Assembly: GCF_004028635.1 (NCBI RefSeq)
Contig: NZ_RQJW01000007.1
Span: 124,001 to 188,000 of the forward strand
Source of the DNA: Streptomyces cyaneus
GTDB lineage: Bacteria > Actinomycetota > Actinomycetes > Streptomycetales > Streptomycetaceae
Direction of reading: 5' to 3'
DNA length: 64,000 nucleotides
Below the pieces are notes generated by a model that saw only the letters and a program-made list of their open reading frames with translations, did not search any database and was not told the origin of the DNA. Position 1 is the stretch's first letter. Every line of letters starts with the position of its first letter. The position numbers and the translations under genes are program-made. Positions 1 to 21,839 of the stretch are shown one piece after another.

Positions 1-848
1 GAGTAGGCGCCGGTGGTGTCCAGGGCGACGGTGGCCGCCGGCCGTCCGCAGACCGCGTGCAGGTCGGCCCGTAGCGTGTCCTGCCCGTGGGAGGCGTGCG
101 GCAGCGACAGCCAGGCGACCCGGTGCAGCGGGTGGGCCGTCCTGTCCGGTTCCGGAGTGACCGTTGCCGCCAACCGGTCCAACAGCAGGCAGTCCGTCAC
201 CGTCGCGGCGAGCGCTCCGACGTGGGACAGGCTGTCGCCGCGCGGCCCGTAGGCCCAGCGCTCCCAGGTCGGTTTGAACCCGACGACCCCGCACCATGCG
301 GCAGGGATGCGCACCGAGCCGGCACCGTCCGTCCCGATCGCGATCGGCCCCAGACCCGTGGCCACCGCGACAGCGGCTCCGCCGCTCGATCCACCGCTGC
401 TGCGGTCCGGGCAGCGCGGGTTCACACTGGCCGGGCCGCAGGCACCGACGGTGCTGGCCGACCAGCCGTCCTCGGACGTGCGGGTCTTGCCCAGGATCAC
501 CGCCCCGGCCCGGCGCACCACCTCGACCACGGGCGAGTCCGTCGCCGCCGCCGGGGCGTCCCCTGCGCGCCCACGACCGGTCGGCAGTCCCGCCACGTCG
601 AGCAGGTCCTTGACCGAGACCGGCACCCCGCACAGCGGCGGGGGCACCCTTGCGCTGCGGTAAGCCAGGTCCGCACGCCGGGCCGCGGCCATCGCCGAGT
701 CCCGGTCGACGGACACGAAGGCGGACCCCTCCGGGGTCCCCTCGGTGATCCGGTCGAGCAGCTCGGCGACATGGCTCGACGGCAGCAACGCGCCCTCGGC
801 GTACTGCCCGGTGAGACTCCGCGCCGAGTACCCGGGCCCGCTACGCAT
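1..848 (-). CDS. Amidase-signature family hydrolase (C-terminus beyond window)
   Basis: The first 282 codons are present; the gene runs off the left edge, which is why no stop is seen. It hydrolyses C-N bonds of amides or carbamoyl compounds. The full Ser-cisSer-Lys catalytic set is visible: VSVKD with Lys80, the SSGGSSGGAA loop with the cis-Ser near 155, and TDGAGSVRIPA with nucleophile Ser178. The ATG at 848 overlaps the stop of the upstream gene (TAG at 843-841) by eight bases, so the two are translationally coupled. As the last visible gene of the minus-strand cluster operon it may trim or deprotect the product, or hydrolyse a primary amide; that role is inference. Family assignment is secure, substrate unknown. 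Confidence 0.9.
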   Translation of the reverse strand, partial: MRSGPGYSARSLTGQYAEGALLPSSHVAELLDRITEGTPEGSAFVSVDRDSAMAAARRADLAYRSARVPPPLCGVPVSVKDLLDVAGLPTGRGRAGDAPAAATDSPVVEVVRRAGAVILGKTRTSEDGWSASTVGACGPASVNPRCPDRSSGGSSGGAAVAVATGLGPIAIGTDGAGSVRIPAAWCGVVGFKPTWERWAYGPRGDSLSHVGALAATVTDCLLLDRLAATVTPEPDRTAHPLHRVAWLSLPHASHGQDTLRADLHAVCGRPAATVALDTTGAY

Positions 849-2508
849 AGGTGCTCCGGAACCAGGCGTTGTCGAACTCGGTGACCTTGTCCCGGCACAC
901 GCGGTACATCTCCTCGTGGAACACCCGCAGGACCTGGCCGAAGGCAACGGCGGTCGCCAGATCCGCCGCGGTGAACGGGACGCCACCGGCCCGCATCAGA
1001 CGCAGGTCGTACAGACCGGGGAAGGTCCGGCCGTCCAGGGCCACCTGCAGCGGCACCCGCATCGCATGGCGCACGCCGAACCGCACGTGCCCGGTGTGGT
1101 GCCATTCGGAGTGGTGGGTGAGGTCGGGCATGGTCGGCGCGAAGAACCAGTCGTCGCGCCGGGGATCGTCGGTCTGCCCGAGCACGTGTGGGAGGTAGTG
1201 CCAGCTGTTGAAGCGCATGCGGGCGCTGTAGGCGGCGAGGATCTTGTCGAGTGACGGTTCCCCGCCGCGGTGCTGGTTCGCGAAGGATCCGCTGGGGACG
1301 ACGCAGCAGTAGAAGTCGGTGGTGCTCAGGGTGAGCGCGTGCCGCTCCGGCTCGGAGTCGTCCACGAAGAAGAGCTCCCGCGGCCCGCGGGCCATGGTCA
1401 CATCGGAGCCGGTGGCTGCGGCGAGGTCCTGGAGCAGGTCGCGGAGGATCTCCGCGCGGACGGCCGGACGCTTGCCGACGGCGGCGTCCTGAACCTGGTG
1501 CGCGGCCTCGCGGCCCATGTCGGCCAGGGTCGGCGCCTGCGCCGACCACCTGGACCACCGGTACTGCGGCCGGGCCAGCAGCCGGGCGTCCGGTACGGCC
1601 GGCAGCGACCGCTCCCGCTTGTTCAGGCTCACCCCGTGGATCTCACGGTAGAAGACCGTGCCCTGCCCGAGCAGCTCCGCCCGGCGCTCGGCGAGGCGCG
1701 CGGCCAGGGCCATGAGCGCTTCCGGCTCCGGCGGGCCCCCCGCTGCCACCACCTGCACTCCATACCGCTGCGCGTGTCCCCGCAGAAACTCGCTCAGCCA
1801 GCGCAGGTCGAGGTGGCAGCCGTTGGCCTCCTCCAGCCGGGACGGCGGGCCGCTGGTGATCAGTACCCAGCACGCCGTCACGAAGGCGGCCTCCTCGCCG
1901 CTCCACGTGCCGACCGGTTGGCTGCGCAGCCGGGCCAGCGTGTCGGCAGGGGCACCGGCCGACACCAGGCGGCCCGGGAGGTTGCCCCGGCCCAGGTTGG
2001 TGAAGCAGGCATCGCCCACGTGCAGTTGGACCGGCGCCATGTGCGGCAACAGGTACGCCAGGCGGTCCAGACACTCGTCGACCGCCTCGCCGGCCTGGGC
2101 GGCCAGCCAGTCCCGCAGCCGCAGCCGCTCGGCCTCGGCCGTGCGCCGTTCCACAGCCCAGCGGCGTACCGCTTGGTCCAGCTCGGCGGCAGCGGCGCCA
2201 CCGAGGACGCGTACCAACGGCTCGGAGCCGTCCGGCGCCTGGACCGCCCAGACCTGCCCGGTCCGGCTCAGCCCGACGGGCATGCCTTCGGCCTGCTCCG
2301 TGGCGGCGACCGCCCGGCAGGGCAGCGCGGCGACGCGCCGCAGCAGCTCGCGCGACTCCCCTGGCAGCCGGTCCAGGCCCTGATCGAGAGGGATGCGACT
2401 GTCCATCGACAGCAGCACCCCGGTCACCGCCGCGACTTCGGGAGCTGCGGCCAGGGCGGTTGCCGCGACGTGGCGCAGCAGACCGTCCCACCCCTCACTG
2501 CCGATCAT
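841..2508 (-). CDS. Unknown 555-aa cluster protein with His-rich C-terminal segment
   Basis: I do not recognise the family. The protein is soluble, with no signal peptide or membrane helix. The N-terminal 150 residues are Ala/Leu/Arg-rich and helical-looking. The C-terminal third is more conserved in appearance, with aromatic residues and a dense histidine group at residues 462-481 (H465, H466, H470, H471, H474, H481) followed by HEEMYR near 531, which could bind metal. The start ATG at 2508 overlaps the stop of the VOC gene (ATGA type), and the stop overlaps the amidase start, so it sits inside a tightly coupled operon and very probably acts on the same substrate. An enzyme or an acyl-acceptor scaffold are both possible. 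Confidence 0.85.
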   Translation of the reverse strand: MIGSEGWDGLLRHVAATALAAAPEVAAVTGVLLSMDSRIPLDQGLDRLPGESRELLRRVAALPCRAVAATEQAEGMPVGLSRTGQVWAVQAPDGSEPLVRVLGGAAAAELDQAVRRWAVERRTAEAERLRLRDWLAAQAGEAVDECLDRLAYLLPHMAPVQLHVGDACFTNLGRGNLPGRLVSAGAPADTLARLRSQPVGTWSGEEAAFVTACWVLITSGPPSRLEEANGCHLDLRWLSEFLRGHAQRYGVQVVAAGGPPEPEALMALAARLAERRAELLGQGTVFYREIHGVSLNKRERSLPAVPDARLLARPQYRWSRWSAQAPTLADMGREAAHQVQDAAVGKRPAVRAEILRDLLQDLAAATGSDVTMARGPRELFFVDDSEPERHALTLSTTDFYCCVVPSGSFANQHRGGEPSLDKILAAYSARMRFNSWHYLPHVLGQTDDPRRDDWFFAPTMPDLTHHSEWHHTGHVRFGVRHAMRVPLQVALDGRTFPGLYDLRLMRAGGVPFTAADLATAVAFGQVLRVFHEEMYRVCRDKVTEFDNAWFRSTYA

Positions 2509-3386
2509 CGCGGTACCCCGTCGGGTAGCTGGTTGCGCAGTGGCCGGGGTCCGGTGCCGCCGCCCGGGACCAAGGCGTGGTCACGCCGCCCGACCAGCTG
2601 CAGGACCGATATCTCCGAACGGATCTCGTCGGTGCGGAAGCCGAGGCGGTGAACGCCTGGGCCACCGTTGCGCTCCAGGAACTCGTCGGATTCGTTCGGC
2701 CGGCCGTCCCGGTGGGCGGACGCGGTGAGCGTCACGGAGGGACCCGCCGGGCCGATGCGCAGCACCACCGAGTCGGCCGCATCGCCGGTCCGGCCGGGCA
2801 GTTCGGCGGGAAGCCGGGTAAAGCCCAGGGCGTCCTCGCAGAAGGCGGCGTAGTCGGCGAGACCGTGCGCGGTCAGCAGGATGTCCAAGTGGTCCAGGCG
2901 CAGGGCCCGCCCGGTCGGCTCGGCCGGGGAGTCCGGTACGGCCGGGGAGTCCGGTACGGCCTCCGTGGCCGGGGCTCCATCCGTGGTGATCCACTGCCGG
3001 CCCGACGGCCAAGCCGGCCCGCCCTGCGCAGCGGTCGGCACCAGCGTGTGCCAGACGCCGCCGAAGCCGGACACCATCCAGCCGCCCCTCGGCGCGGCCC
3101 AGGTCCTCGCCCCGGCCGCCCGGGCCGCCTCGACCGTCGCCGCGACGTCGGCGCAGCTCAGGGCGATGTCGAAGACACCGTCCCCGTGATCGGAGACGAA
3201 CCTGCGGGTACCCCAGCCCGAGGTGACGACCAAGAGGACCTCACCCTGCCGCAGCAGTACCGAGCTCCGATCCGCTTGGACGCTGTCCGCGACCCGGGCG
3301 AATCCGAGATCGGCCACCAGGCGGTCCACCACCGCGACCTTGTCCAGCACGAACAGCTCGACATAGGCGATGTCCTGCACAGTCAT
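2505..3386 (-). CDS. HPPD/hydroxymandelate-synthase-like VOC protein, shortened
   Basis: Two tandem vicinal-oxygen-chelate modules resemble 4-hydroxyphenylpyruvate dioxygenase and hydroxymandelate synthase. The first module covers residues 1-110. The second begins at LRLDHLDILL, supplying the first metal His, and continues to GGPGVHRLGF, supplying the second. The protein is 293 residues, against about 350-380 for the family, and ends about 37 residues after the second His, before the place where the third ligand (a Glu in a C-terminal strand) should be. It is therefore either a truncated, non-canonical or regulatory member. Starts 11 bp after the antiporter stop; ends in an ATGA overlap with the next gene. 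A repeated VPDSPAVPDSPAEP linker joins the modules. Confidence 0.8.
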   Translation of the reverse strand: MTVQDIAYVELFVLDKVAVVDRLVADLGFARVADSVQADRSSVLLRQGEVLLVVTSGWGTRRFVSDHGDGVFDIALSCADVAATVEAARAAGARTWAAPRGGWMVSGFGGVWHTLVPTAAQGGPAWPSGRQWITTDGAPATEAVPDSPAVPDSPAEPTGRALRLDHLDILLTAHGLADYAAFCEDALGFTRLPAELPGRTGDAADSVVLRIGPAGPSVTLTASAHRDGRPNESDEFLERNGGPGVHRLGFRTDEIRSEISVLQLVGRRDHALVPGGGTGPRPLRNQLPDGVPR

Positions 3387-3397
3387 GCCAAGCCTCC

Positions 3398-4720
3398 TCA
3401 GGCGGACTGAGTCGCGAACTCACGTTCACGCTCGATCTCGGTGGAGGTCAGCGGCATGCGTGCGGCGGTCCGTCGCAGGATGGGCGGGGCCATCACCGAC
3501 GTGACGACCGCCACCAGCACGACGATGGTGTAAGACCCGCTGGTCAGCACCCCGATGCGCAGGCCGACGGAGGCGAGCACGATCTCCACCACGCCACGGG
3601 CGTTGAGGCCTGCGCCGATGGCGAGCGCCTCGTTGCCCGACAGTCGTCCGACCCGCGCGCCGAGGTAGCCGCCGACGAACTTCGCCCCGATGGCGACGGC
3701 GAGGGTGGCCAGCCCGGCGAGCAGGATCTTCGGACTCTCGAGCGCGGACAGGTCCACCTGGAGCCCGGCGGTGGCCAGGAAGATCGGGGCGAGGACCGCC
3801 ATCACGAAGGGCCGCATGGTGTCCAGCGTTCGGCGCCCGGCCTTGCCCAACGAGCCGATCACGATGCCACACAGGAAGGCGCCCAGAATCGGTTCCATGC
3901 CCAGTGCATGGGTACCGGCCGCGGACAGGATGATCAGCACGATCGCGACCGAGAGGCCGACCTGGGTACCTGCCGGCCCGCCGGACCGCTCGGCCCATCC
4001 CATCAGCCGCGCGATGAGCGGACGGGCCAGGAACGCCGCGAAGGCCAGCACGATCACCAGGTAGCCGACGGACTCGAGAACCACCCCCGAGTGGAGACCG
4101 TAGGTGGCCATGGCCGACACGATCGACAGCAGCATCCAGCCGATGATGTCGCTCACCGCCGCCGAACCGATGATGATCTGACCGACGTTCCGGTGCAGCA
4201 GTCCCATGTCCAGCAACGTCTTGGCGATCACCGGGAGCGCGCTCACCGCCACCGCCACCCCGATGAACAGCGCGAAGGTGAGCCGGTTGCCCGGATCGCC
4301 CATCAATTGCGTGGGCAGCACGAAGCCGAGCCCACAGCCCAGAAACAGCGGCAGCAGCACTGTGCCCGCGCTGACCGAGGCGATCACCCGACGCTTGCGC
4401 TTGAGCAGGCCCAGGTCGATGTGCGCGCCAGTGATCGCCACCAGCAGCAGCACGCCGAACTGCGACACGGCGCTGAGCAGGTGCATCTGCTCGGGATCGT
4501 GGGGCAGCAACCAGTTGGACAGGCCCGGTAGCCAGTTGCCCAGCAGCGAGGGCCCAAGCACGACTCCGGCGGTCAGCTCCCCGACGACCGGCGGCAGTTT
4601 CACTCGCACGGCGAGGCGGCCGAGGACGATCGCGGTGGCAAGCAGCAGACCCGCCTGCAGCAGGAAGATCAGGATCTGGTGGTGGGTGAGACCAGGCACT
4701 GGTCCCGTGGCCAGCGTCAT
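3398..4720 (-). CDS. CPA2-type monovalent cation/proton antiporter
   Basis: An integral membrane protein of 440 residues with about 12-13 hydrophobic helices and the typical opening of Kef/NapA-like exchangers (helix 1, then LPPVVGELTAGVVLGPSLLG). The transport-site segment in the middle reads SAALPVIAKTLLDMG-like and AVSDIIGWML, the latter holding the conserved membrane Asp. There is no C-terminal RCK/TrkA-N domain. It exchanges Na+ or K+ for H+; the exact ion cannot be read from sequence. Such antiporters recur in Streptomyces clusters next to exporters and may give self-protection or pH/ion balance during export. Starts 24 bp after a small upstream ORF. Confidence 0.9.
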   Translation of the reverse strand: MTLATGPVPGLTHHQILIFLLQAGLLLATAIVLGRLAVRVKLPPVVGELTAGVVLGPSLLGNWLPGLSNWLLPHDPEQMHLLSAVSQFGVLLLVAITGAHIDLGLLKRKRRVIASVSAGTVLLPLFLGCGLGFVLPTQLMGDPGNRLTFALFIGVAVAVSALPVIAKTLLDMGLLHRNVGQIIIGSAAVSDIIGWMLLSIVSAMATYGLHSGVVLESVGYLVIVLAFAAFLARPLIARLMGWAERSGGPAGTQVGLSVAIVLIILSAAGTHALGMEPILGAFLCGIVIGSLGKAGRRTLDTMRPFVMAVLAPIFLATAGLQVDLSALESPKILLAGLATLAVAIGAKFVGGYLGARVGRLSGNEALAIGAGLNARGVVEIVLASVGLRIGVLTSGSYTIVVLVAVVTSVMAPPILRRTAARMPLTSTEIEREREFATQSA

Positions 4721-4970: not shown

Positions 4971-6239
4971 TCAGGAGCCGAGTGGCTCCGGGATCCCCTT
5001 CGCCTCCTCGGACTCGGCCGGCCGCTGCTGCCGCTCCAGCAGAGCCACCATGGGGCGCACCAGGAGTGAGGCGAGCAGGAAGAAGGCCGCCAGACCCAGC
5101 CAGCCGACCCGGCCGGTGCCGATCACCACGGTGGTGAGCAGGCTCGGCCCGATGATGCCCTCGCTCGTGGAGCCGAGGTTGAAAACCGAGAGATAGGTGG
5201 CTTTCTGGCCCTCGGGAGCGAACAGGTACGACAGCTGCCAGCCGCCGACGGACTGCCACAGCTCGCCGAAGGTGAGCAGCACCAGACCGATCAGCAGCAC
5301 CGTGAGTGCCACCGCCGCGCTCGTACCCTGGGCGTACGCGAAGGCCACGCTGCACGCGGCGAGCGCCAGACCACCGCGGCGCAGCGCCCGGCCGGCCCCC
5401 TTGGCGTCGTCGGCCCCTCTGGAGAAAGGGACTTGCAGCACCACGGCCAGCACGGTGTTGATGAACACCAGGATCGGCACCGCTGCGGTGGGGGCCTCGG
5501 TGGCCGTCACCGTCCACAGCGGGATGCCGACCGAGAGGATCGTCATGTGCAGGCAGAGCGTGCCGTTCAAGGTGCTCAGCGCGACGTAACGCCAGTCGCG
5601 GAAACCCTTGATGGCACTGAACACGCTGCCGGAGGCACGGGCGGCCGTGCTGCGGGGCAACTTCAGCCGCATCAGCAGGCAGGCCGAGACGGAGAAGGCC
5701 AGGGCGTTGCCGAGAACCAGCAGCCGGAAGGCCGAAGGGTTGGACGCCGACAGCAGTGGGGCGGCGAGCAGGGCGCCCAGCGAGAACCCGACGTTGCGGA
5801 CCGTGCGGATGATCGCCATGGCCCGGAGCCGGTCCTGGGGACTGGTGGTCTCGGCGACCACCGCCTGGTTCAGGGGCGGGGTCGACCCTTCGGCCACCGC
5901 CATGCACGAGGCGACCACCGTGAAGCCGATCGGGTCGCTCACGAAGCAGAGCCCGATGAAACAGCAGGCACGCCAGAGCTGAGTGCCGATCAGGGCTCGC
6001 AGCGAGCCGAACCGGTCGGCGAGGGCGCCGACCGGCACCGTGGCCAGGAAGCCGAACACTGCCGCGGTGGCGAGCCCGAGGCCGATCTGAGAGTTGCTCA
6101 GGCCGACGTAGCGGATGAAGAAGACCGTGGAGCCCGCAAGGAAGAGACCGGTGCCGATCGAGCTGATCAGAGCCGTGAGCGCAAAGGTCCGCGCGGCGGG
6201 GGTGGACGGCACGTAGTCCTTGAACGAGGGCAGCTTCAC
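4971..6239 (-). CDS. MFS-type exporter
   Basis: A 422-residue major facilitator with about 12 hydrophobic helices and the loop 2-3 signature GALADRFGSLRAL. The GTG at 6239 is preferred over the upstream in-frame ATG at 6272, because it is preceded by GGAGGAACGGC and forms a GTGA overlap with the stop of the ATP-grasp gene. Its place between biosynthetic ligase and antiporter suggests that it exports the cluster product and gives self-resistance (inference). Confidence 0.9.
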   Translation of the reverse strand: MKLPSFKDYVPSTPAARTFALTALISSIGTGLFLAGSTVFFIRYVGLSNSQIGLGLATAAVFGFLATVPVGALADRFGSLRALIGTQLWRACCFIGLCFVSDPIGFTVVASCMAVAEGSTPPLNQAVVAETTSPQDRLRAMAIIRTVRNVGFSLGALLAAPLLSASNPSAFRLLVLGNALAFSVSACLLMRLKLPRSTAARASGSVFSAIKGFRDWRYVALSTLNGTLCLHMTILSVGIPLWTVTATEAPTAAVPILVFINTVLAVVLQVPFSRGADDAKGAGRALRRGGLALAACSVAFAYAQGTSAAVALTVLLIGLVLLTFGELWQSVGGWQLSYLFAPEGQKATYLSVFNLGSTSEGIIGPSLLTTVVIGTGRVGWLGLAAFFLLASLLVRPMVALLERQQRPAESEEAKGIPEPLGS

Positions 6240-7516
6240 CGCCGTTCCTCCTCTGCGGCACCATCCGTGCACACCACGGCGATCCGCCCCGCGACGTCCT
6301 CGGCGTTGGCGGCCGCGTCGGGGCCGTCCGCGCCCGTGGCGATCACATGACCGGCCCGTTCCCAGGAGCTGGTCGTCGGCCGGACCGTGTCCCCGGGCGC
6401 GACGCCGACGTGCACTGAATGCACGCCCTTGGCAGCTCGCGCCTTCTCCTCGCCCAGGACCTCGGCCACCACACCGGGAGGCGAGCTCAGGAAGCGGATT
6501 GCGGCGCCCCCCAGCGGGTCGCGCGGCCCGACTGGACCGCCGCCCTCCAGGATGCCGAGCAGGTCGTCGGCCAGGGAGCCGCCGTAGGCGAGGTCGATCA
6601 GCTGCGGGATGTTGTCACCAGGGAGCCGGGCCGCGCACTCGACCAGGTACGGGCCGCCGTCGCCGAGGATCCACTCGGCGTGCAGCACGCCGTTGCGGAA
6701 GCCGGCTGCCTCGGCCAGCAGCCGGACGGCCCGGTACAGCGCCTCCTCGGTGGCGGCGGGAAGCCCGGCCGGGACGGTGTGGGCCAGTTCGACGGGGTAA
6801 CGGGACTGCAGCACGGTCTTGGCCGTGATGTTGCGGAAGCCGACCACACCCTGGTGGACCAGGACCTCGACGCTGACCTCAGGACCGTACAGACGCTGCT
6901 CAACCAGGTAGCGGTCGGCGTCGGCGTACCGGGCGCGCTGCCGGGTGTCCCTGGCCCCGGCGGTGTGCGACCACAGCGCGTGAACGTCGTCATCGGGCTC
7001 CAGAAGCTGGACGCCGAGGCTGGCCTGACTGTTGCCCGGCTTGATGACACAGGCCCGCCCGTGCACGGAGCGGAACCGCTCGACCTCGTCCGGCCCGCTG
7101 ACCTCGGCCCAGGCAGGCTGGGCGATGCCGGCCGCACCGGCCACAGCGCGCAGCCGCGCCTTGTCGCGGAACACCCGCGCGGCGGCGAGCCCGGCTCCGG
7201 GCACGCCCCAGGCGTCGGCGAGCGCGGCGGCCGAGACCACCCCGTACTCGACACCGGGCATCACCGCCTGCACACGCGGCGGACGCTGCACGGCGGCCAC
7301 GACTCGCTCGGGGTGCTCCTCGTCTTGGGTCGGGGCCTCCAACAGAGCCGCCACGCAACGGAACTTGGCGGCCTGCTCGTGGGCTCGCCGAGCCTCGATG
7401 ACGCTCGATTCCTCCAGGATCAGCACGGACCGTTCCGGGAGGCGTTCCTCCAGGTCGGAGAGGCTCCCGACGCTGAAGCCTACGAGGACGTGGGTGATGG
7501 AGTCGCTCAGGGACAT
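6236..7516 (-). CDS. ATP-grasp amide ligase 1
   Basis: A 426-residue stand-alone ATP-grasp protein of the carboxylate-amine ligase type (BacD/carnosine-synthase-like). Visible elements in order: a Rossmann-like N-terminal domain, the central nucleotide-binding strand CVIKPGNSQASLGVQ (Lys near 173), the hinge LVEQRLYGPEVSVEVLV, and the metal-binding ECAARLPGDNIPQ segment near residue 310. It activates a carboxylate as acyl phosphate and couples it to an amine. Overlaps the MFS start by a GTGA. There are 262 bp between its start and the radical-SAM gene. With two further ATP-grasp genes on the other strand, it implies that at least two or three peptide or amide bonds are made without an NRPS. 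Confidence 0.9.
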   Translation of the reverse strand: MSLSDSITHVLVGFSVGSLSDLEERLPERSVLILEESSVIEARRAHEQAAKFRCVAALLEAPTQDEEHPERVVAAVQRPPRVQAVMPGVEYGVVSAAALADAWGVPGAGLAAARVFRDKARLRAVAGAAGIAQPAWAEVSGPDEVERFRSVHGRACVIKPGNSQASLGVQLLEPDDDVHALWSHTAGARDTRQRARYADADRYLVEQRLYGPEVSVEVLVHQGVVGFRNITAKTVLQSRYPVELAHTVPAGLPAATEEALYRAVRLLAEAAGFRNGVLHAEWILGDGGPYLVECAARLPGDNIPQLIDLAYGGSLADDLLGILEGGGPVGPRDPLGGAAIRFLSSPPGVVAEVLGEEKARAAKGVHSVHVGVAPGDTVRPTTSSWERAGHVIATGADGPDAAANAEDVAGRIAVVCTDGAAEEERR

Positions 7517-7778: not shown

Positions 7779-9122
7779 CTACTCTTCGAAGGGGAACTTG
7801 TCGGCGAGCGCCGGCTTCAGGTCCGACAGCCACTTGGCTTCCGGGTCGTAGTGGGCAAAGAACGGCCGCCCCACCAGCGACGCGTCGCGCGCCTGGATGA
7901 GCCGGAGCATGAACAGCCGCTCGCCGTTGATCTCCGTGACGCCGTCGACGCATACCTTGCCCGGCGTGGCCGACATGGAGGGGCCGCGAACGGTCCGGCA
8001 GAGGCCGGAGACCGAGGTATAGGCATCCCGGAAGATTTCGTACGCCCGGCCGAGCGGGACCGCGAAGTAGTCCTGCGGGCCGGTGTCGCGCTCGACGAAC
8101 ATGTAGTAGGGGATCATCCCCATTGCGTGCTGCTGCCGCCACATGCTCGACCAGTCGCTGGGATTGTCGTTGATCGACCGGATCAGAGGGGCCTGCGTCC
8201 GGATGGTCGCGCCCGTCGACTGGATGCGGCGGACCGCCTGGGAGACCAGCTGCGACTCCATCTCCCGCGGATGGCTGAAGTGCGCCATGAAAGCGAGATT
8301 CTTGCCGGCCTTGGTGACCCGCTCGAACAGCCGCAGGGTGGCGTCCGCGTCCGGGTCGGTCACGAACCGCTGCGGCCAGTACGCCAGGGCTTTGCTCCCG
8401 ATCCGGATCGATTCGAGCTGCGGCAGCTCGAGCAACGGCTCGATGTAGCGCTTGAGGACCGTCTCGCCCATGATCATGGGATCGCCGCCGGTGATGAGCA
8501 CGCTGGTGACGTCAGGGTGCGCCACCAAATATTCCACCAGGCCGTCGATGTCGTCGGAAGCGAACTTCAGGTCCGGCTCCCCGACGAACTGCGCCCACCG
8601 GAAGCAGTACGTGCAGTATGCATGGCAGGTCTGCCCCTGCTTGGGGAAGAACAGCACCGTCTCTCGGTACTTGTGCTGGATGCCCTGCATCTCGTCGGGA
8701 ACGTTGAGATCCATCTGCCCGGCGGGATGGGGGTTCAGCTTCATCCGAACCTCGTGGGCCGCGCGCTGGATCTCCTTGGGCGGTGCCTCCTGGCGGAGCA
8801 GGTCCGCGATCCGGGCGACGTCCGAGTCGGGCAGCATGTCCGCCTGGGGGAAGACGAGCCGGTAGATCGGGTCGTCGGGGGCGGCGGACCAGTCGATCAG
8901 CTCGTCCACCACGTAGGCGTTCGTCCGAAAGGGCAGCACCGTCGCCACGGCTCGAGTCGCGAGCCTCGCCTCGGGCCCGAGCCCCGCTCGGGCCACCAGT
9001 TCATCGAGGTGCTTGTTGGTGTAGGCGCGAAAGCGTTGCGTGGCGCGCACCGGCGTGCCGGCCAACCCGGCGGGCGGTGCGTCATTGAGCAATGTCACTC
9101 GTGGACTCTCTTCTGGTGTCAT
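7779..9122 (-). CDS. Radical-SAM/PLP aminomutase, lysine-2,3-aminomutase family
   Basis: A 447-residue KamA-family enzyme. The [4Fe-4S]/SAM motif is CHAYCTYC (C166, C170, C173). The GGDPM motif near 212 follows, and a late Gly/Ser loop GPSMSATPGK offers K389 as the PLP lysine. The family moves the alpha-amino group to the beta carbon. Hand alignment to clostridial lysine 2,3-aminomutase puts D319 at the position of Asp293, but R345 at the position of Asp330, so the substrate may not be lysine. The ATG at 9122 is preferred over a further-upstream in-frame start at 9380, because residues before it look non-coding and run through an inverted repeat. It probably supplies a beta-amino acid to the ligases. 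Confidence 0.9.
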   Translation of the reverse strand: MTPEESPRVTLLNDAPPAGLAGTPVRATQRFRAYTNKHLDELVARAGLGPEARLATRAVATVLPFRTNAYVVDELIDWSAAPDDPIYRLVFPQADMLPDSDVARIADLLRQEAPPKEIQRAAHEVRMKLNPHPAGQMDLNVPDEMQGIQHKYRETVLFFPKQGQTCHAYCTYCFRWAQFVGEPDLKFASDDIDGLVEYLVAHPDVTSVLITGGDPMIMGETVLKRYIEPLLELPQLESIRIGSKALAYWPQRFVTDPDADATLRLFERVTKAGKNLAFMAHFSHPREMESQLVSQAVRRIQSTGATIRTQAPLIRSINDNPSDWSSMWRQQHAMGMIPYYMFVERDTGPQDYFAVPLGRAYEIFRDAYTSVSGLCRTVRGPSMSATPGKVCVDGVTEINGERLFMLRLIQARDASLVGRPFFAHYDPEAKWLSDLKPALADKFPFEE

Positions 9123-9424: not shown

Positions 9425-10348
9425 TCAGGCCTCGCGGGGAGCCAGGAGCGTGCGAGCCTCGCGGGTACCGTCGAAGTACGGGCTGGCGTAGACCAGTTCG
9501 CCGTCCTCGGTAGCGACCTTGTCGTTGAAGTCGCGGCCGATGTCGTAGTTGAACGTGGCCCGCGGGGAGGCGAGGTTCTCGACGCGACGCTTGTCGTACC
9601 GGGCGTCGACCGAGGAGAAGCGCAGCGCGTAGGCCAGCCGCGACGGGATCGGGCCCTCCTCGAGCTTGATGCTGCGGTGCAGCACGTACTTGTCGAAGAG
9701 AAGGGCGTCGCCCAGTTCGAAGGAGTCCTCCACCGCGAAGTGGTCCAGCAGCGCCTTCGTCGAAGGCGAGTTGAGCGGGCCGTCCTTGAGGGTGCTGAAG
9801 TCCTCGTAGCTAAGGTCGCGGCCGGCCTCGACCTCGCTCCTGCAGTACTCGGGCACCAGGTTGAAGTGCTGGTAGACGAACTCGCCCGAAAGGTGCTGCT
9901 TGGACACGTACTTCATGCCGCCGCGCTGGCCCTGGGCATCGATGGTGCACAGCGGCGTCCAGACGGTGAAGCCTGCGTCCTGGCGGCGCTGGAAGCCGAA
10001 GCTCTTGTTGCCCACGTGCCACGGGAACCCGGTGCTCTTGCCCTTCGCCAGTTCGAATCCGAGCCCCTGGGTGAAGAACAGCTGCTGACCGGTCAGCTTG
10101 GCTATGGCGGTCGAGAAGGTCTCGTCGCGCATCACGTCGAGAACGGTGGGGTCGTCGTTGCCCACGTCGTACTTCAGCTTGCTGAAGCCCTTGCCGTAGT
10201 TGTCCGACGGGGGAGCGACCTCCGAGGTGCAAAGCTTCTGCATGTGCTCGATGAGTTCCGGCGAGAAGATGCCCTTGAGCTTCAGGAAGCCGTGCTCACG
10301 GAAGTTCTGAATATCTGCGTCAGAGACAGAAAAGCTCGGATTGATCAC
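9425..10348 (-). CDS. PhyH-fold Fe(II)/2-oxoglutarate enzyme with HxG motif: candidate radical halogenase
   Basis: A 307-residue cupin-type oxygenase of the phytanoyl-CoA dioxygenase superfamily. The proximal metal motif is FPWHVGNKSFGFQ: H111 is in place, but residue 113 is Gly (GGC at 10010-10012) where hydroxylases have Asp/Glu. The distal His is H224 (VLHRSI) and the 2-oxoglutarate Arg is R237 (PSRLAYALRF). Loss of the acidic ligand to Gly or Ala opens a chloride site in SyrB2 (HxA), WelO5 and BesD (HxG); BesD-type enzymes chlorinate free amino acids. No other HxD/E lies ahead of the W130 core strand. First gene of the minus operon, facing a 590-bp regulatory region. A halogenase is favoured; an inactive or unusual oxygenase remains possible. 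Confidence 0.85.
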   Translation of the reverse strand: MINPSFSVSDADIQNFREHGFLKLKGIFSPELIEHMQKLCTSEVAPPSDNYGKGFSKLKYDVGNDDPTVLDVMRDETFSTAIAKLTGQQLFFTQGLGFELAKGKSTGFPWHVGNKSFGFQRRQDAGFTVWTPLCTIDAQGQRGGMKYVSKQHLSGEFVYQHFNLVPEYCRSEVEAGRDLSYEDFSTLKDGPLNSPSTKALLDHFAVEDSFELGDALLFDKYVLHRSIKLEEGPIPSRLAYALRFSSVDARYDKRRVENLASPRATFNYDIGRDFNDKVATEDGELVYASPYFDGTREARTLLAPREA

Positions 10349-10938
10349 GCGCGGACTCCTGTTTGATGTTTCTGGAACGGGGTAGTGGGCTGCCGGCGGT
10401 TACGGAAGATGGGCACGCCAAGCGGATATCCGGATCGCCGAGCCTCTTCCCCAGGACCGCAGATCCCCGATATCTGACCTGGGCGTCCCCTATTCGCACG
10501 CGGCAAAGATTCCACGCACGGCAGGGCTCAACGAGCGGCATACCTCCCAGCCAAGTAAATCCACACGGTCAGGCGCACATCAAGAGACATTCATGCCACC
10601 TACTGACATCGCGGCGTCGAGTCGGCAGTGCAATTGATGGACAACCCGCCATTGCCAACCCATTTCCCAGGCTTCACAGGGTGGACCTTCGTGGTGTAAC
10701 CGACAAAGTAGACTGGGCAACTTGATCTTGCAGGCTGCCGTTGGCACACTCCTGCCGAGCTGAGCGAGGCGAATGTGACCACCATCACAGCAGCCGATTC
10801 GGCGCCAACACCCCTCCCCGGCTACAGCCGGAAAGAGGCGGGCTGCAACGGGGGAATTTTTAAAATATGAATTCTGGTTATTCGCTCGCGACAAAAGTAA
10901 AGCGAGCAAACGGGGTAGGCGCTCGGAAAGATGGAGCG
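10349..10938. promoter_or_regulatory. Divergent regulatory region of the cluster
   Basis: About 590 bp between the PhyH-like start and the preferred regulator start. ORFs here have no coding bias. It is the most AT-rich DNA of the cluster, with the run TTTTTAAAATATGAATTC near 10856-10873. It must hold the promoters for the nine-gene minus operon and for the regulator. I could not define -10/-35 boxes with confidence. Confidence 0.45.
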
Positions 10939-11241
10939 ATGGATCCGATCGAGCTCCATGGCGCGATCGAGGTAGTAGACGTTCTGGCTCGACGCGGAAT
11001 GATCGCCGTTCTGAACGCTCTGATATTGGGCCCACTTGGGCACAATGAACTTGCTCGTGAGACCAACATGGACAGCAAGCAGTTGTCTCGGACGCTCGTT
11101 CGCGCGCGGGATACGGGAATAGTGGATCGCATAGTCAGTGGCGAAATCCCTCCCGTGCGCGTGCATTACGAGCTGACCCCGAGGGGCGAAGACCTGGCCA
11201 GGGCAATCATTCCGCTGGCCCTCTGGTCCAAGAACTCATAA
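10939..11241 (+). CDS. HxlR-type winged-helix regulator
   Basis: A 100-residue winged-helix protein matching the HxlR pattern: a helix (VVDVLARRGMIAVLNALIL), recognition helices around NELARETNMDSKQLSRTL, and a wing followed by VHYELTPRGEDLARAI. The family usual N-terminal Cys is absent. I prefer the ATG at 10939 because the 24 codons from the alternative ATG at 10867 have low third-position GC and look like leader; GGAAAG lies 8 bp upstream of 10939. GC is lower than in the neighbours, a sign of separate origin. It sits between divergent halves of the biosynthetic cluster and is the obvious cluster regulator. Confidence 0.8.
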   Translation: MDPIELHGAIEVVDVLARRGMIAVLNALILGPLGHNELARETNMDSKQLSRTLVRARDTGIVDRIVSGEIPPVRVHYELTPRGEDLARAIIPLALWSKNS

Positions 11242-11363: not shown

Positions 11364-12584
11364 GTGGAAAACCTGATCATGTCGCCAATCAGTGCGTTGC
11401 TTCGCAGTACGCCTCGGGAATGGTCCGACGCAACCCAGAACACGGCCCATCTGTTGACGGGAACAGACTGCGATCACCCGCCGGAATGGATCAAGGCGCA
11501 CTACGGTGACGCGTTCCAGGAAATTGAGTGCTTCGAGAATTACGAGGCGAACGACCTGGTCGCGAAGCGGGCCGACCACCTGCTCGCGAACGGCGGGTTC
11601 AAACGGGTCATCCCCATGACAGAGGCAGACGTCATGCGAGCGGCATGGCTGCGCAAGCGCCACGGGCTGACCGGTGTCCCTCCCGAGGACGCGGTCTACA
11701 TGCGCGACAAGTTCCTCATGAAGCAGTGCGCGTCTGCGGCAGGCGTTCCGGTGGCTCATGGCCGGAAGGTCCGCAACGCCTTCGAGCTGCTCGACTTCGC
11801 GGACGAGGTCGGCTTCCCGGTCGTACTGAAGCCGATCTCGGGCCGGGGATCGGCCGAGACCTTCATCCTGGACTCGGAGACCGAGCTGGACTCCCTGCTG
11901 AGTGCGGGAATCTTCGCCAGGGCCGACCGCGAGCCGGACATGCTCGCCGAGGCCTTCGTCGACGGGACGCAGTTCCACGTCGACGGCTACTACTCCCAGG
12001 GCGTCTGCCGCTTCATGAGCGCGGCTCGGTATGTCGGCAGTCATATCGATTTCTTTCAGGGCGGCGGGTTCTTGGGCAGCACGGTTCTCGACGCCCGGAG
12101 CGACATTTTCCGGGAACTCACCGAGTTCACCAGGAACCTCCTGGAGAAGGTGCTTCCCTTTGGGCCCGACGGCCTCTTCCATGTGGAGATCTGGCAGCGC
12201 CCGAACGGCGAGCTCGTCCTCGGCGAGGCCGCACAGCGGCTCGCCGGCGGTCCGATATTCGAAGAGAGCCGGGCCAGCTTCGGGGTCGATTACAAGATGG
12301 ACGCAGTCCGTGCGTTCTGTGGGTTCGAACCGTGTGACTCGCCGGGAACAGAGGCCCTGCAGAAGCAGATCGCCGGGCACGGAGAGATCTCCTCCACCAG
12401 GGCCCTGACCAAGGCCCCTCAGTCGGCTCCGTTCGACTGGGTGCTGGACTACAAGTTGCGGCACACCAGCAGCGAGATCGTGACTTTCGTCGTTTCCGGC
12501 GCGACCAGTGACGAGGTCGAAGAACGCCTTCGCATCTGTACCGACTGGTTCTACGCGAATGCGGAGTGGTCGGATGAGTGCTGA
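11364..12584 (+). CDS. ATP-grasp amide ligase 2
   Basis: A 406-residue ATP-grasp ligase. Signature parts are the second nucleotide Lys in FPVVLKPISGRGSAETF, the hinge MLAEAFVDGTQFHVDG, and the metal acids in FHVEIWQRPNGELVLGEAAQR with RLAGG after it. GTG start with GAGG 5 bp upstream; ATG at 11379 is an alternative. It belongs to the same general carboxylate-amine ligase group as ligase 1 but is clearly divergent from it, so the two should have different substrates. Its end overlaps the next ligase by 11 bp. Confidence 0.9.
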   Translation: MENLIMSPISALLRSTPREWSDATQNTAHLLTGTDCDHPPEWIKAHYGDAFQEIECFENYEANDLVAKRADHLLANGGFKRVIPMTEADVMRAAWLRKRHGLTGVPPEDAVYMRDKFLMKQCASAAGVPVAHGRKVRNAFELLDFADEVGFPVVLKPISGRGSAETFILDSETELDSLLSAGIFARADREPDMLAEAFVDGTQFHVDGYYSQGVCRFMSAARYVGSHIDFFQGGGFLGSTVLDARSDIFRELTEFTRNLLEKVLPFGPDGLFHVEIWQRPNGELVLGEAAQRLAGGPIFEESRASFGVDYKMDAVRAFCGFEPCDSPGTEALQKQIAGHGEISSTRALTKAPQSAPFDWVLDYKLRHTSSEIVTFVVSGATSDEVEERLRICTDWFYANAEWSDEC

Positions 12585-13854
12585 AAGAGCAGAGCTTGCC
12601 GAACACCTTCTCATGGTCGGTGGAGCACGCGAGGTCCCGAGGAATTGCTTCCAGGCTGCCCCCGGGCTGCGGATCAGCGTGATCTGTCGGCAGGAGTTCG
12701 AAAGCAAGGTCTGGGACAAGAAGGACCTGCACCGGCTGCTGCTCCTCGATCCTGAGACCAGCCGGGAGGAATGGCTGGGCATCGTCCGGGCGATCCATGA
12801 GAACGACCGCATCGATGCGATCGTCAATTTCACCGAGTCGGATGCGGACAAGACCGCCTACATCGCCGAGAGGCTGGGGCTGAGGTGCTACTCCGCGCAG
12901 ACCGTTCAGTGGGTCACCGACAAGTACCTCATGCGCGCCCGCCTGAACGAGACGGGCGTCGATCACACTCCCGCGATGAAGGTGGTCGGCCCGGACGAGC
13001 TCGCCAAGGCCGCCGCTGAGCTGGGCTACCCCGTCATCTGCAAGCCCACAGGAGGCACCGGAAGCCTGGGCATCAGCAAACTGGAGTCCCCCGCGGACGT
13101 CCCCCGGGCCTTCACCTGGAGCAAGGAAGGAACTTCGAGCCTGGACGGGGACGAGCTCATAGCCGAGCCCTTCCACCAGGGCCAGGAGTTCAGTGTCGAG
13201 TGCATCAGCGAGACAGGCCGACACTACGTGGCAGGCATCACCCAAAAGTCCATCGACCAGGACAGCTTCGTCGAAGTCGGGCATCTGCTGCCGGCGCCGC
13301 TTCCTGACGCGGACGCGGCAGCCATCTCCGACACCGTTCTCCGGATGCTGGACGCGCTGGAGATCCAGGACGGCCTGACCCACACCGAGGTGATCCTCAC
13401 CGAGAACGGTGTCCGGATCATCGAGACCCATCTACGCTACGGCGGCGACAGGATCCCCAACATGCTCACGGCCGCGACGGGGATCGATATCCAGAAGGCT
13501 TGGGCTCGTCAGGCGGTCGGCCACTCGATCACCGCGGAGATCGAGGAGGCGATAGAGCGTCATCGGAGCGGCGAGCGCGCGGAGTTCGCAGCGATCCGGT
13601 ACCGGTGCGCCGACCGCCGGGGCGTACTCACCGCAGTCCACGGCATCGAGGAGGCGCACGGGATGCCCGGCGTGATGGAGGTCGCCGCTGTGGCCGAGGT
13701 CGGTGAGCAGGTCGGCGATCTCACCGATTCGCTCGCGCGACTCGCGTTCGCCTGGGCACTCGGCGCGACGCCGGAGGAAGCCACAGAGCGCGCTCAGGCG
13801 GCAGTGGAGTCGCTCACCTTCGATCTCGACGACGAACCCGGTGGCCAGACGTGA
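12574..13854 (+). CDS. ATP-grasp amide ligase 3
   Basis: A 426-residue ATP-grasp ligase with the pre-grasp domain, YPVICKPTGGTGSLGISK, the hinge LIAEPFHQGQEFSVEC and the metal acids in THTEVILTENGVRIIETH. The C-terminal lid region ends in an acidic tail. The ATG at 12574 is chosen over the in-frame upstream start at 12508 because it lies in GCGGAGTGGTCGG context and gives an 11-bp overlap with ligase 2, so the pair is translationally coupled and may form a complex or act in sequence. Confidence 0.9.
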   Translation: MSAERAELAEHLLMVGGAREVPRNCFQAAPGLRISVICRQEFESKVWDKKDLHRLLLLDPETSREEWLGIVRAIHENDRIDAIVNFTESDADKTAYIAERLGLRCYSAQTVQWVTDKYLMRARLNETGVDHTPAMKVVGPDELAKAAAELGYPVICKPTGGTGSLGISKLESPADVPRAFTWSKEGTSSLDGDELIAEPFHQGQEFSVECISETGRHYVAGITQKSIDQDSFVEVGHLLPAPLPDADAAAISDTVLRMLDALEIQDGLTHTEVILTENGVRIIETHLRYGGDRIPNMLTAATGIDIQKAWARQAVGHSITAEIEEAIERHRSGERAEFAAIRYRCADRRGVLTAVHGIEEAHGMPGVMEVAAVAEVGEQVGDLTDSLARLAFAWALGATPEEATERAQAAVESLTFDLDDEPGGQT

Positions 13855-14158: not shown

Positions 14159-14983
14159 ATGACGGTGGCGTTGATCGACTCAGGGTTCGGACTCCTCTCC
14201 ACTACGGGCTGGCTCCGGCACCTGGCCCCGGAACTCGACCTGCTGTTGCTACTCGATCCCGACGGCGCTCCCTGGGGATCGAAGACGGCCTCCTTCGTCA
14301 CGGAACGTCTGTTGACCGCCGCTCAGTTCGCCATCGAGCGAGGCGCGCAGGCCATCGTGGTCCCCTGCAACACCGCCACCGTCACCGCGATCGACGCTCT
14401 GCGCGAGAGGTACGAGCCGCGCGTACCTGTGATCGGAACCGTGCCCGCCGTGAAGCCGGCCGCAGCAGTTGGCCAAAGCATCGCCGTGTGGGCAACCGTC
14501 CGGACCACGGCGAGCAAATACCAGGAGCGCCTGATCGCGGACCACGCGAACGGCCGGCCCGTGGCGCGTGTCGCATGCCCCGGCCTGGCGGAGGCGATCG
14601 ACCACGGCGACACCGCCGCAGCAACGGCAGCCATCGCCGACGCGGCCGAGCGAACCCCCGAAGACTGCGACTCCGTGGTGCTGGGATGCACGCACTACCC
14701 CCTGGTTGTGCCAGAGATCCTACGGAGCCTGCCCAGTGGAATCACTCTGTACGACAGCGCGGAGGCGGTCGCCCGTCAAACGCTGCGACGATTGGGGAGA
14801 GCCACGGACTCGCGCAGCACGATGGGCGCCATCGACGTGGTACTCAGCGGTCGACCCGGAAGCCTCCCGACCGGCGGCCACGCCTACCCCGTGGGTCGCG
14901 CCCTCGCCGCAGCAGAGCGGGTACCCCGCGACATTCTCACCTCAGCAGTGACTCGCTCCCCGATGACTTCACCGGCGATCTGA
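14159..14983 (+). CDS. Aspartate/glutamate racemase family protein (MurI-like)
   Basis: A 274-residue protein with the two catalytic cysteines of glutamate racemases: the first in AIVVPCNTAT (near residue 69), the second in VVLGCTHYPLV (near 180). The N-terminus reads VALIDSGFGLLS, a variant of the usual DSGxGG start. Length is normal for MurI. Sequence outside the motifs is loose, so this looks like a secondary copy rather than the housekeeping murI. It lies just after the ligases and could supply a D-amino acid to the product, or be unrelated to it. Confidence 0.8.
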   Translation: MTVALIDSGFGLLSTTGWLRHLAPELDLLLLLDPDGAPWGSKTASFVTERLLTAAQFAIERGAQAIVVPCNTATVTAIDALRERYEPRVPVIGTVPAVKPAAAVGQSIAVWATVRTTASKYQERLIADHANGRPVARVACPGLAEAIDHGDTAAATAAIADAAERTPEDCDSVVLGCTHYPLVVPEILRSLPSGITLYDSAEAVARQTLRRLGRATDSRSTMGAIDVVLSGRPGSLPTGGHAYPVGRALAAAERVPRDILTSAVTRSPMTSPAI

Positions 14984-18120: not shown

Positions 18121-18600
18121 TTACATCCGGGACGGCTTCTTCTTGTTGAAGAGCCAGACATCGAAGAGCTTCGTCAGCTTCTTCCCGGACTTGCCCTCAC
18201 ACAGGGCGATGAACTGTCCGGTGTCGGCGTTGCCGTGCCGGTGCTGTCGGGTCCAGGTGCGGAGAATGTCGAAGAAGGTCTCGTCGCCGACGGCCTCACG
18301 CACCTTGTGCATGACCATGGCGCCACGTCCATAGACGGGCGGGTCGGAGACGCGCGCTGCGCGGGGAGGATCGGCCGGCGGGAAGGCCCAGATGCCCTCG
18401 CTCTCGGAATCCGTGCCGTCGTAGAAATCCTCGAAGATCTCATCGGTGTTCCTGCCGCCCTGCTCCTCCTCCCAGAGCCACTCCGCGTAGGTGGCCATGC
18501 CCTCGTTGAGCCAGATGTCCTTCCACTTGCGCGGGGTGACGGAGTTGCCGAACCACTGGTGCGCCAGCTCGTGCACGAGCAGCCACCGGGCAACCGGCGG
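18121..18600 (-). pseudogene. M1 family metallopeptidase, 5'-truncated
   Basis: The last 150-160 residues of a gluzincin aminopeptidase of about 450-500 residues. The zinc site is intact: VHELAHQWFGN (HExxH) with the downstream Glu in WLNEGMATYAEW, and a typical PPVYGRGAMVMHKVRE follows. The N-terminal two-thirds is missing: reading upstream of LLVHELAH the frame gives low-quality sequence with no signal peptide. The break point is about 18600. Without its N-terminal domain it cannot be a normal enzyme. Confidence 0.75.
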
Positions 18601-21446: not shown

Positions 21447-21839
21447 TCAATGGTTTTGTCGAAGCGCGTTGGATTTTGTGTGGTTGGGGAAGGTCACGCA
21501 GGTCACGTCGCCGCGGCGGGTGTCCGGGCGTATGTCGCCGTTCCCGGTGCTCCACCAGGTGTTGCCGTGGGTGAGCACAACGCCCTTGGGCGTGCCGGTA
21601 GGGCCCGAGGTGAACATCGGGATCACCGGGTCGTCGGTGCGCCCGGGGACGACCTCGATGGTCGGCTGTGCCGTGGTGATCAGCGGGGACCATGGCTCCC
21701 GGCCTTCCGCTCCGGCGGTCGGCACTTCGGGGTCGTCGTCCACCAGGAGAAAACGCCTGAGGCGTGTCCAGACGCGCACGGCTTCCACACCGGCGCGGCG
21801 CCCCTCCTCGCAGACGATCACCTCCGCGCTGCTGCTCAC
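21447..21839 (-). pseudogene. Acyl-CoA synthetase (AMP-binding) fragment
   Basis: About 130 residues containing the adenylate-forming P-loop motif PMFTSGPTGTPKGVVLTHGN, then WWSTGNGDIRPDTRRGDVT, after which the expected FHIGA-type segment is lost and the frame ends. The first Thr of the usual TSGTTG is Pro here. Both ends are missing relative to a ligase of about 500 residues, so this is a broken gene. Confidence 0.65.

Follow-up and report, generated by a model that had tools for sequence, protein, structure and literature searches.

The window analysed here, a 64,000-nucleotide stretch of Streptomyces cyaneus DNA, contains a minus-strand gene whose PhyH-type product (Hal) has a glycine where Fe(II)/2-oxoglutarate enzymes have an iron-binding carboxylate. 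Is Hal a radical halogenase and, if so, on what kind of molecule does it act? Judged by its sequence and setting, Hal very probably chlorinates a small amino-acid-like molecule, and it is likely to be a radical halogenase of the BtnX/CurA branch that takes its amino-acid-type substrate free rather than carrier-bound.

A vacated ligand position in a functional gene

The gene and the codons of its putative active site lie as follows.

9425..10348, minus strand: Hal, putative Fe(II)/2-oxoglutarate radical halogenase of the BtnX/CurA-Hal branch, 307 aa, GTG start at 10348 and stop at 9425
10010..10018, minus strand: codons of H111-V-G113, the proximal His and the Gly at the vacated carboxylate site
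9677..9679, minus strand: codon of H224, distal iron ligand (15-sequence alignment)
9638..9640, minus strand: codon of R237, putative 2-oxoglutarate-binding Arg (15-sequence alignment)

The GC content at codon positions 1, 2 and 3 of this ORF (60, 40 and 90%) is that usual for genuine Streptomyces genes, and dN was lower than dS in comparisons with three relatives (dN/dS pairs of 0.13/0.34, 0.17/0.85 and 0.19/0.43). Together, these values show that the gene is functional. Pfam assigned the product to PhyH (1.2e-07). An AlphaFold2 model built from a four-sequence alignment had a mean pLDDT of 37.6 and was discarded. The H111-V-G113 motif, H224 and R237 that the original prediction had placed in this PhyH-fold ORF were all present, exactly as described, in the 307-aa protein.

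We aligned 15 sequences from Streptomyces, Bacteroidetes, Klebsiella, Pantoea, Acinetobacter and Dinoroseobacter, and H111, G113, H224 and R237 were invariant in all of these relatives (15/15; 30-79% identity). Since the glycine is invariant across this alignment, a sequencing error is excluded, as is a mutation private to Hal. As controls, the four other PhyH proteins in the same genome have HSD, HRD, HQD and HIE. The four residues of Hal also pair without gaps with their counterparts in the BtnX and CurA halogenase structures, HVG upon HVG. A distant homologue on the unverified scaffold MT838212.1 has FDLHYDSLSFRY where Hal has FPWHVGNKSFGF; here H-Y-D replaces H-V-G, the remainder of the stretch matches, and an Asp falls at the position of Gly113. 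Because this distant relative has Asp exactly there, Gly113 is situated at the iron-ligand site, a placement with which the invariance and the pairing with solved halogenases agree independently, and the earlier assertion that no alignment slip was involved is borne out. An HxD relative at L048:986-1729, on a human-faecal scaffold labelled 'Bacteriophage sp.' and unverified, has an in-frame stop directly before the motif. Replacement of HxD/E by HxG or HxA, together with a distal His and a 2-oxoglutarate Arg, marks radical halogenases, and Hal has each of these; nonetheless, HxG is evidence of the necessary type and is insufficient alone.

Relatives of Hal and their settings

The best PDB match of Hal was the biotin halogenase BtnX (E 6e-61 over residues 5-294), followed by the CurA halogenase domain (E 1e-23). 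A profile built from 15 relatives returned BtnX (1.7e-131) and CurA Hal (2.6e-41) and then, weakly, EctD and CytC3, the latter being the next halogenase (E 0.003). Hal is thus homologous over its full length to the BtnX/CurA-halogenase branch, one member of which is named in the PDB as a free-substrate halogenase. Considering that the two best PDB matches are halogenases and that the HxG site is vacated, the prediction of a radical halogenase is well supported; the enzyme is new only in part, since its close relative BtnX has already been crystallised as a halogenase (9pv1, 9q04). WelO5 was not detected. BesD, whose entry was presumably present in the PDB copy searched, was matched neither by phmmer (E<=1) nor by the family profile (E<=10) among all PDB chains, and kinship between Hal and BesD was rejected. 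Since BesD gave no match even at E<=10, the analogy with it extends to the principle of working only.

The PDB sequence of BtnX is contained in the translation of a locus on plasmid pDSHI01 of Dinoroseobacter shibae (L022), which identifies BtnX as a protein of that plasmid; its gene adjoins the biotin-transport genes BioY and EcfT. Going by its name, BtnX would act on a small, free molecule. Our search among open-licence papers found none on BtnX or on a cluster comparable to that of Hal. A phylogenetic tree, used solely to show the grouping of Hal among the Streptomyces copies, placed it with these; its deep branches were poorly resolved, and CurA and BtnX formed long branches.

The halogenase family is rare, occurring in three other genomes among 393 sampled in the genus and, among 396 sampled across the phylum, in none except that of S. 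cyaneus. This genome has a second halogenase (G000:C1:891641-892552), 79% identical to Hal, in a cluster at G000:C1:882001-902000 (L003). The layout around the second copy is common to six Streptomyces loci, itself included: halogenase, GNAT acetyltransferase, TauD oxygenase with an ordinary HSD motif, ArgE-type deacetylase, MFS protein, glutathionylspermidine-synthase-like ATP-grasp protein, LAL ATP-grasp ligase, Na/H antiporter and VOC protein. The MFS gene of one of the six, NBC_01207, was detected merely as a small fragment. At a seventh locus, in S. zaomyceticus, the halogenase is accompanied by an antiporter, a diaminopimelate-epimerase-type protein, two ATP-grasp ligases and an M20 peptidase. 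Beside Hal and its Streptomyces relatives there are no genes for transporting or making biotin.

Plasmid copies in Klebsiella, Pantoea and Acinetobacter adjoin LysE-type exporters, and one K. aerogenes copy also adjoins a haem-oxygenase-like diiron enzyme (PF14518). On K. aerogenes plasmid pC9_001 (L019:8862-11601), a haem-oxygenase-like diiron enzyme, an HxG halogenase relative and a LysE exporter are encoded consecutively, possibly a pathway to a chlorinated amino acid on a conjugative plasmid. Plasmid operons of Pantoea (L023:5803-13610) and K. pneumoniae (L024:1541-9442) contain more distant HxG relatives with an opine-dehydrogenase-like enzyme, a DapH/DapD-like transferase, an SDR, an ATP-grasp ligase, an MFS protein and LysE. 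The Acinetobacter soli plasmid copy (L021:10001-10912) has an in-frame stop near its start and is annotated from a later one. Two scans of viral contigs found no relatives. Amino-acid settings are recurrent across the branch, BtnX being the exception.

The gene cluster and the choice of substrate

The genes around Hal in the window are the following.

841..2508, minus strand: 555-aa protein of unknown family; the S. pinistramenti halogenase locus encodes a homologue (about 40%)
2505..3386, minus strand: VOC/glyoxalase-fold protein; in six other Streptomyces loci a homologue adjoins the halogenase
3398..4720, minus strand: Na+/H+-exchanger-type antiporter, 69-72% identical to a halogenase neighbour in six other Streptomyces loci
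4971..6272, minus strand: MFS exporter
6236..7516, minus strand: ATP-grasp L-amino-acid ligase (LAL_C2)
7779..9122, minus strand: KamA-family radical SAM/PLP 2,3-aminomutase-like enzyme, 447 aa from a probable ATG at 9122
10867..11241, plus strand: HxlR-type regulator, divergent from the halogenase
11364..12584, plus strand: ATP-grasp ligase
12508..13854, plus strand: ATP-grasp L-amino-acid ligase (LAL_C2), which probably starts downstream of 12508
14159..14983, plus strand: Asp/Glu-racemase family protein; the halogenase cluster of NBC_01207 has a 47% homologue

This cluster has the halogenase (79%), antiporter (72%) and VOC protein (44%) in common with that of the second copy, and has the KamA-family enzyme, its own MFS protein and three ATP-grasp ligases in place of the remaining layout genes. 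Since the NBC_01207 cluster has homologues of the window racemase (47%) and of one window ligase (30%), the right-hand genes are probably part of the window cluster. Clusters of the window type, with the aminomutase, are known from one genome. The 555-aa protein had no match in Pfam, NCBIfam or the PDB; its homologues occur at S. pinistramenti L014:16678-18396 (~40%) and, more weakly, on Streptomyces and Burkholderia plasmids. Further along the window are short ORFs, at 18121-18576 and 21447-21839, which by eye resemble an M1-type aminopeptidase in truncated form and part of an AMP-binding enzyme.

The genome has 56 carrier-protein domains, all of them outside the window; the closest to Hal, at C6:243783, is about 110 kb away. 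Of its eight ATP-grasp_4 domains, three belong to the window cluster and one to the second halogenase cluster. Since carrier domains are absent and ATP-grasp_4 domains are concentrated here, a free substrate and peptide bonds formed by ATP-grasp ligases are favoured. The window thus offers no carrier for a dependence of the CurA/SyrB2 type; a carrier could in principle act from elsewhere. Overall, the cluster context (three ATP-grasp ligases, aminomutase, transporters and racemase, without a carrier) favours a free substrate of the amino-acid type. The original comparison with the BesD cluster therefore holds for a carrier-free cluster of amino-acid and ATP-grasp enzymes and fails for kinship with BesD itself.

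The start of the aminomutase-like gene is probably at 9122, since codon-position GC is flat in the stretch upstream of it. The enzyme keeps CxxxCxxC and, by eye, the PLP Lys. In lysine 2,3-aminomutase, Asp293 and Asp330 hold the lysine side chain, and glutamate aminomutase has a basic residue at the place of Asp293. Alignment with 2a5h showed Arg in place of Asp293, and Ser replaces Asp330 in a pairing made by eye beyond the printed alignment. The enzyme also scored far under the NCBIfam equivalog cut-offs for lysine, glutamate and arginine. Its identity as a lysine 2,3-aminomutase was rejected because these side-chain residues are missing and, as the lysine-binding aspartates have been lost, plain lysine is disfavoured as the substrate of this enzyme and of Hal. 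Orthologues occur in 70 of the 393 genus genomes sampled, as well as on replicons of Mycetohabitans and Nonomuraea; two of the loci that we inspected, one adjoining an NRPS and the other adenylation and P450 genes, gave no clue to a substrate. The substrate of this divergent KamA-like family appears to be undescribed.

These observations bear on several other accounts of Hal. It could be a BesD-like lysine or ornithine halogenase, the aminomutase converting lysine or chlorolysine into a beta-lysine. The KamA-family enzyme and ATP-grasp ligases would fit, as would the LysE exporters beside distant relatives and the haem-oxygenase-like oxidase beside the K. aerogenes relative, which recalls BesC beside BesD; however, Hal has no sequence kinship to BesD and the aminomutase lacks both lysine-side-chain ligands, leaving this account doubtful. 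We likewise consider it unlikely that the amino acid chlorinated by Hal is glutamate-like (acidic or N-acylated), even though the Arg at the Asp293 place and the N-acetyltransferase, HxD TauD oxygenase, ArgE-type deacetylase and ligases of the sister cluster point in that direction. Biotin and the 3-hydroxy-3-methylglutaryl-carrier protein, the substrates of BtnX and CurA Hal, bear a carboxylate, so both characterised relatives agree with it. Streptomyces metabolites and antibiotics with a chlorinated glutamate-type unit are also known (PMC8659048), but no strain that makes them could be connected with the cluster. An acidic or N-acyl substrate may serve as a lead, and nothing beyond.

An orthologue of BtnX acting on biotin would account for the 36% identity and the identical motif and length, yet it is very improbable that Hal is one, given that every Streptomyces copy lacks the adjoining biotin transport or synthesis genes, such as the BioY/EcfT of BtnX, and has a conserved ATP-grasp setting instead. 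Finally, Hal may halogenate no longer despite its HxG, being a hydroxylase, a desaturase or an inactive relic. The HxD-bearing relative and the stop-interrupted A. soli copy are compatible with such a loss, which is nevertheless improbable: the glycine is kept in 15/15 sequences spanning 30-79% identity, selection is purifying, and one genome has two intact copies, both of them in conserved clusters.

Proposed activity and comparison with known systems

In well-studied halogenases, chloride occupies the site of the missing carboxylate, a chloroferryl species abstracts hydrogen from a C-H bond, and chlorine rebounds (PMC8407142; PMC12346261). By homology, H111 and H224 of Hal would hold Fe(II) and R237 would hold 2-oxoglutarate, with chloride in the site vacated by Gly113; reaction with O2 would yield a chloro-Fe(IV)=O species, which would abstract a hydrogen from an aliphatic C-H before chlorine rebounds to the substrate carbon. 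The aminomutase-like enzyme probably moves an amino group from C2 to C3 on the same or a partner amino acid, after which the three ATP-grasp ligases may link amino acids to form a di- or tripeptide for export by the MFS and antiporter proteins. Activity, step order and retention of chlorine in the product are what we infer, as is the substrate, for which we draw on the neighbouring genes only. Tentatively, the halogenase and the 2,3-aminomutase-type enzyme might share a carrier-free pathway to a (cryptically) chlorinated beta-amino acid that is ligated by ATP-grasp enzymes into a short peptide; the same genome would then also have a sister pathway served by a separate halogenase.

Radical halogenases that accept free small molecules are, to our knowledge, few, and such enzymes are sought after for C-H chlorination. 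The Hal cluster is apparently an undescribed, carrier-free biosynthetic setting for a known kind of enzyme. If the tentative beta-amino-acid pathway is real, free amino-acid halogenases would have evolved independently in two lineages, that of BesD and the BtnX/CurA branch. The Streptomyces clade, with its two conserved cluster layouts, supplies enzymes to assay and places to look for a new peptide, chlorinated or chlorine-derived; the family offers a natural HxG/HxD contrast.

Among known systems, WelO5/AmbO5 and SyrB2/CytC3 resemble Hal in having the carboxylate vacated (Gly or Ala) and a halide at the iron, but they act on indole alkaloids or on amino acids bound to a carrier, and the similarity to CytC3 is marginal. 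BesD/HalA-E share with Hal the outline of an HxG radical halogenase with a free substrate and ATP-grasp neighbours; Hal, for its part, has no detectable sequence kinship to that group and no lysine-specific partner. The CurA halogenase domain (PDB 3nnf, 3nnj, 3nnl, 3nnm) has the fold family, HVG and aligned distal His and Arg of Hal; it is, however, part of a megasynthase and acts on a carrier-bound substrate, whereas Hal has no carrier domain within about 110 kb. BtnX (PDB 9pv1, 9q04; pDSHI01 DSHI_RS18615) is like Hal in family and length, is 36% identical to it from end to end, and conserves HVG, the distal His and the Arg; neither setting needs a carrier protein. The two differ in their company, since BtnX sits with BioY and EcfT and Hal sits with ATP-grasp ligases, an aminomutase and exporters.
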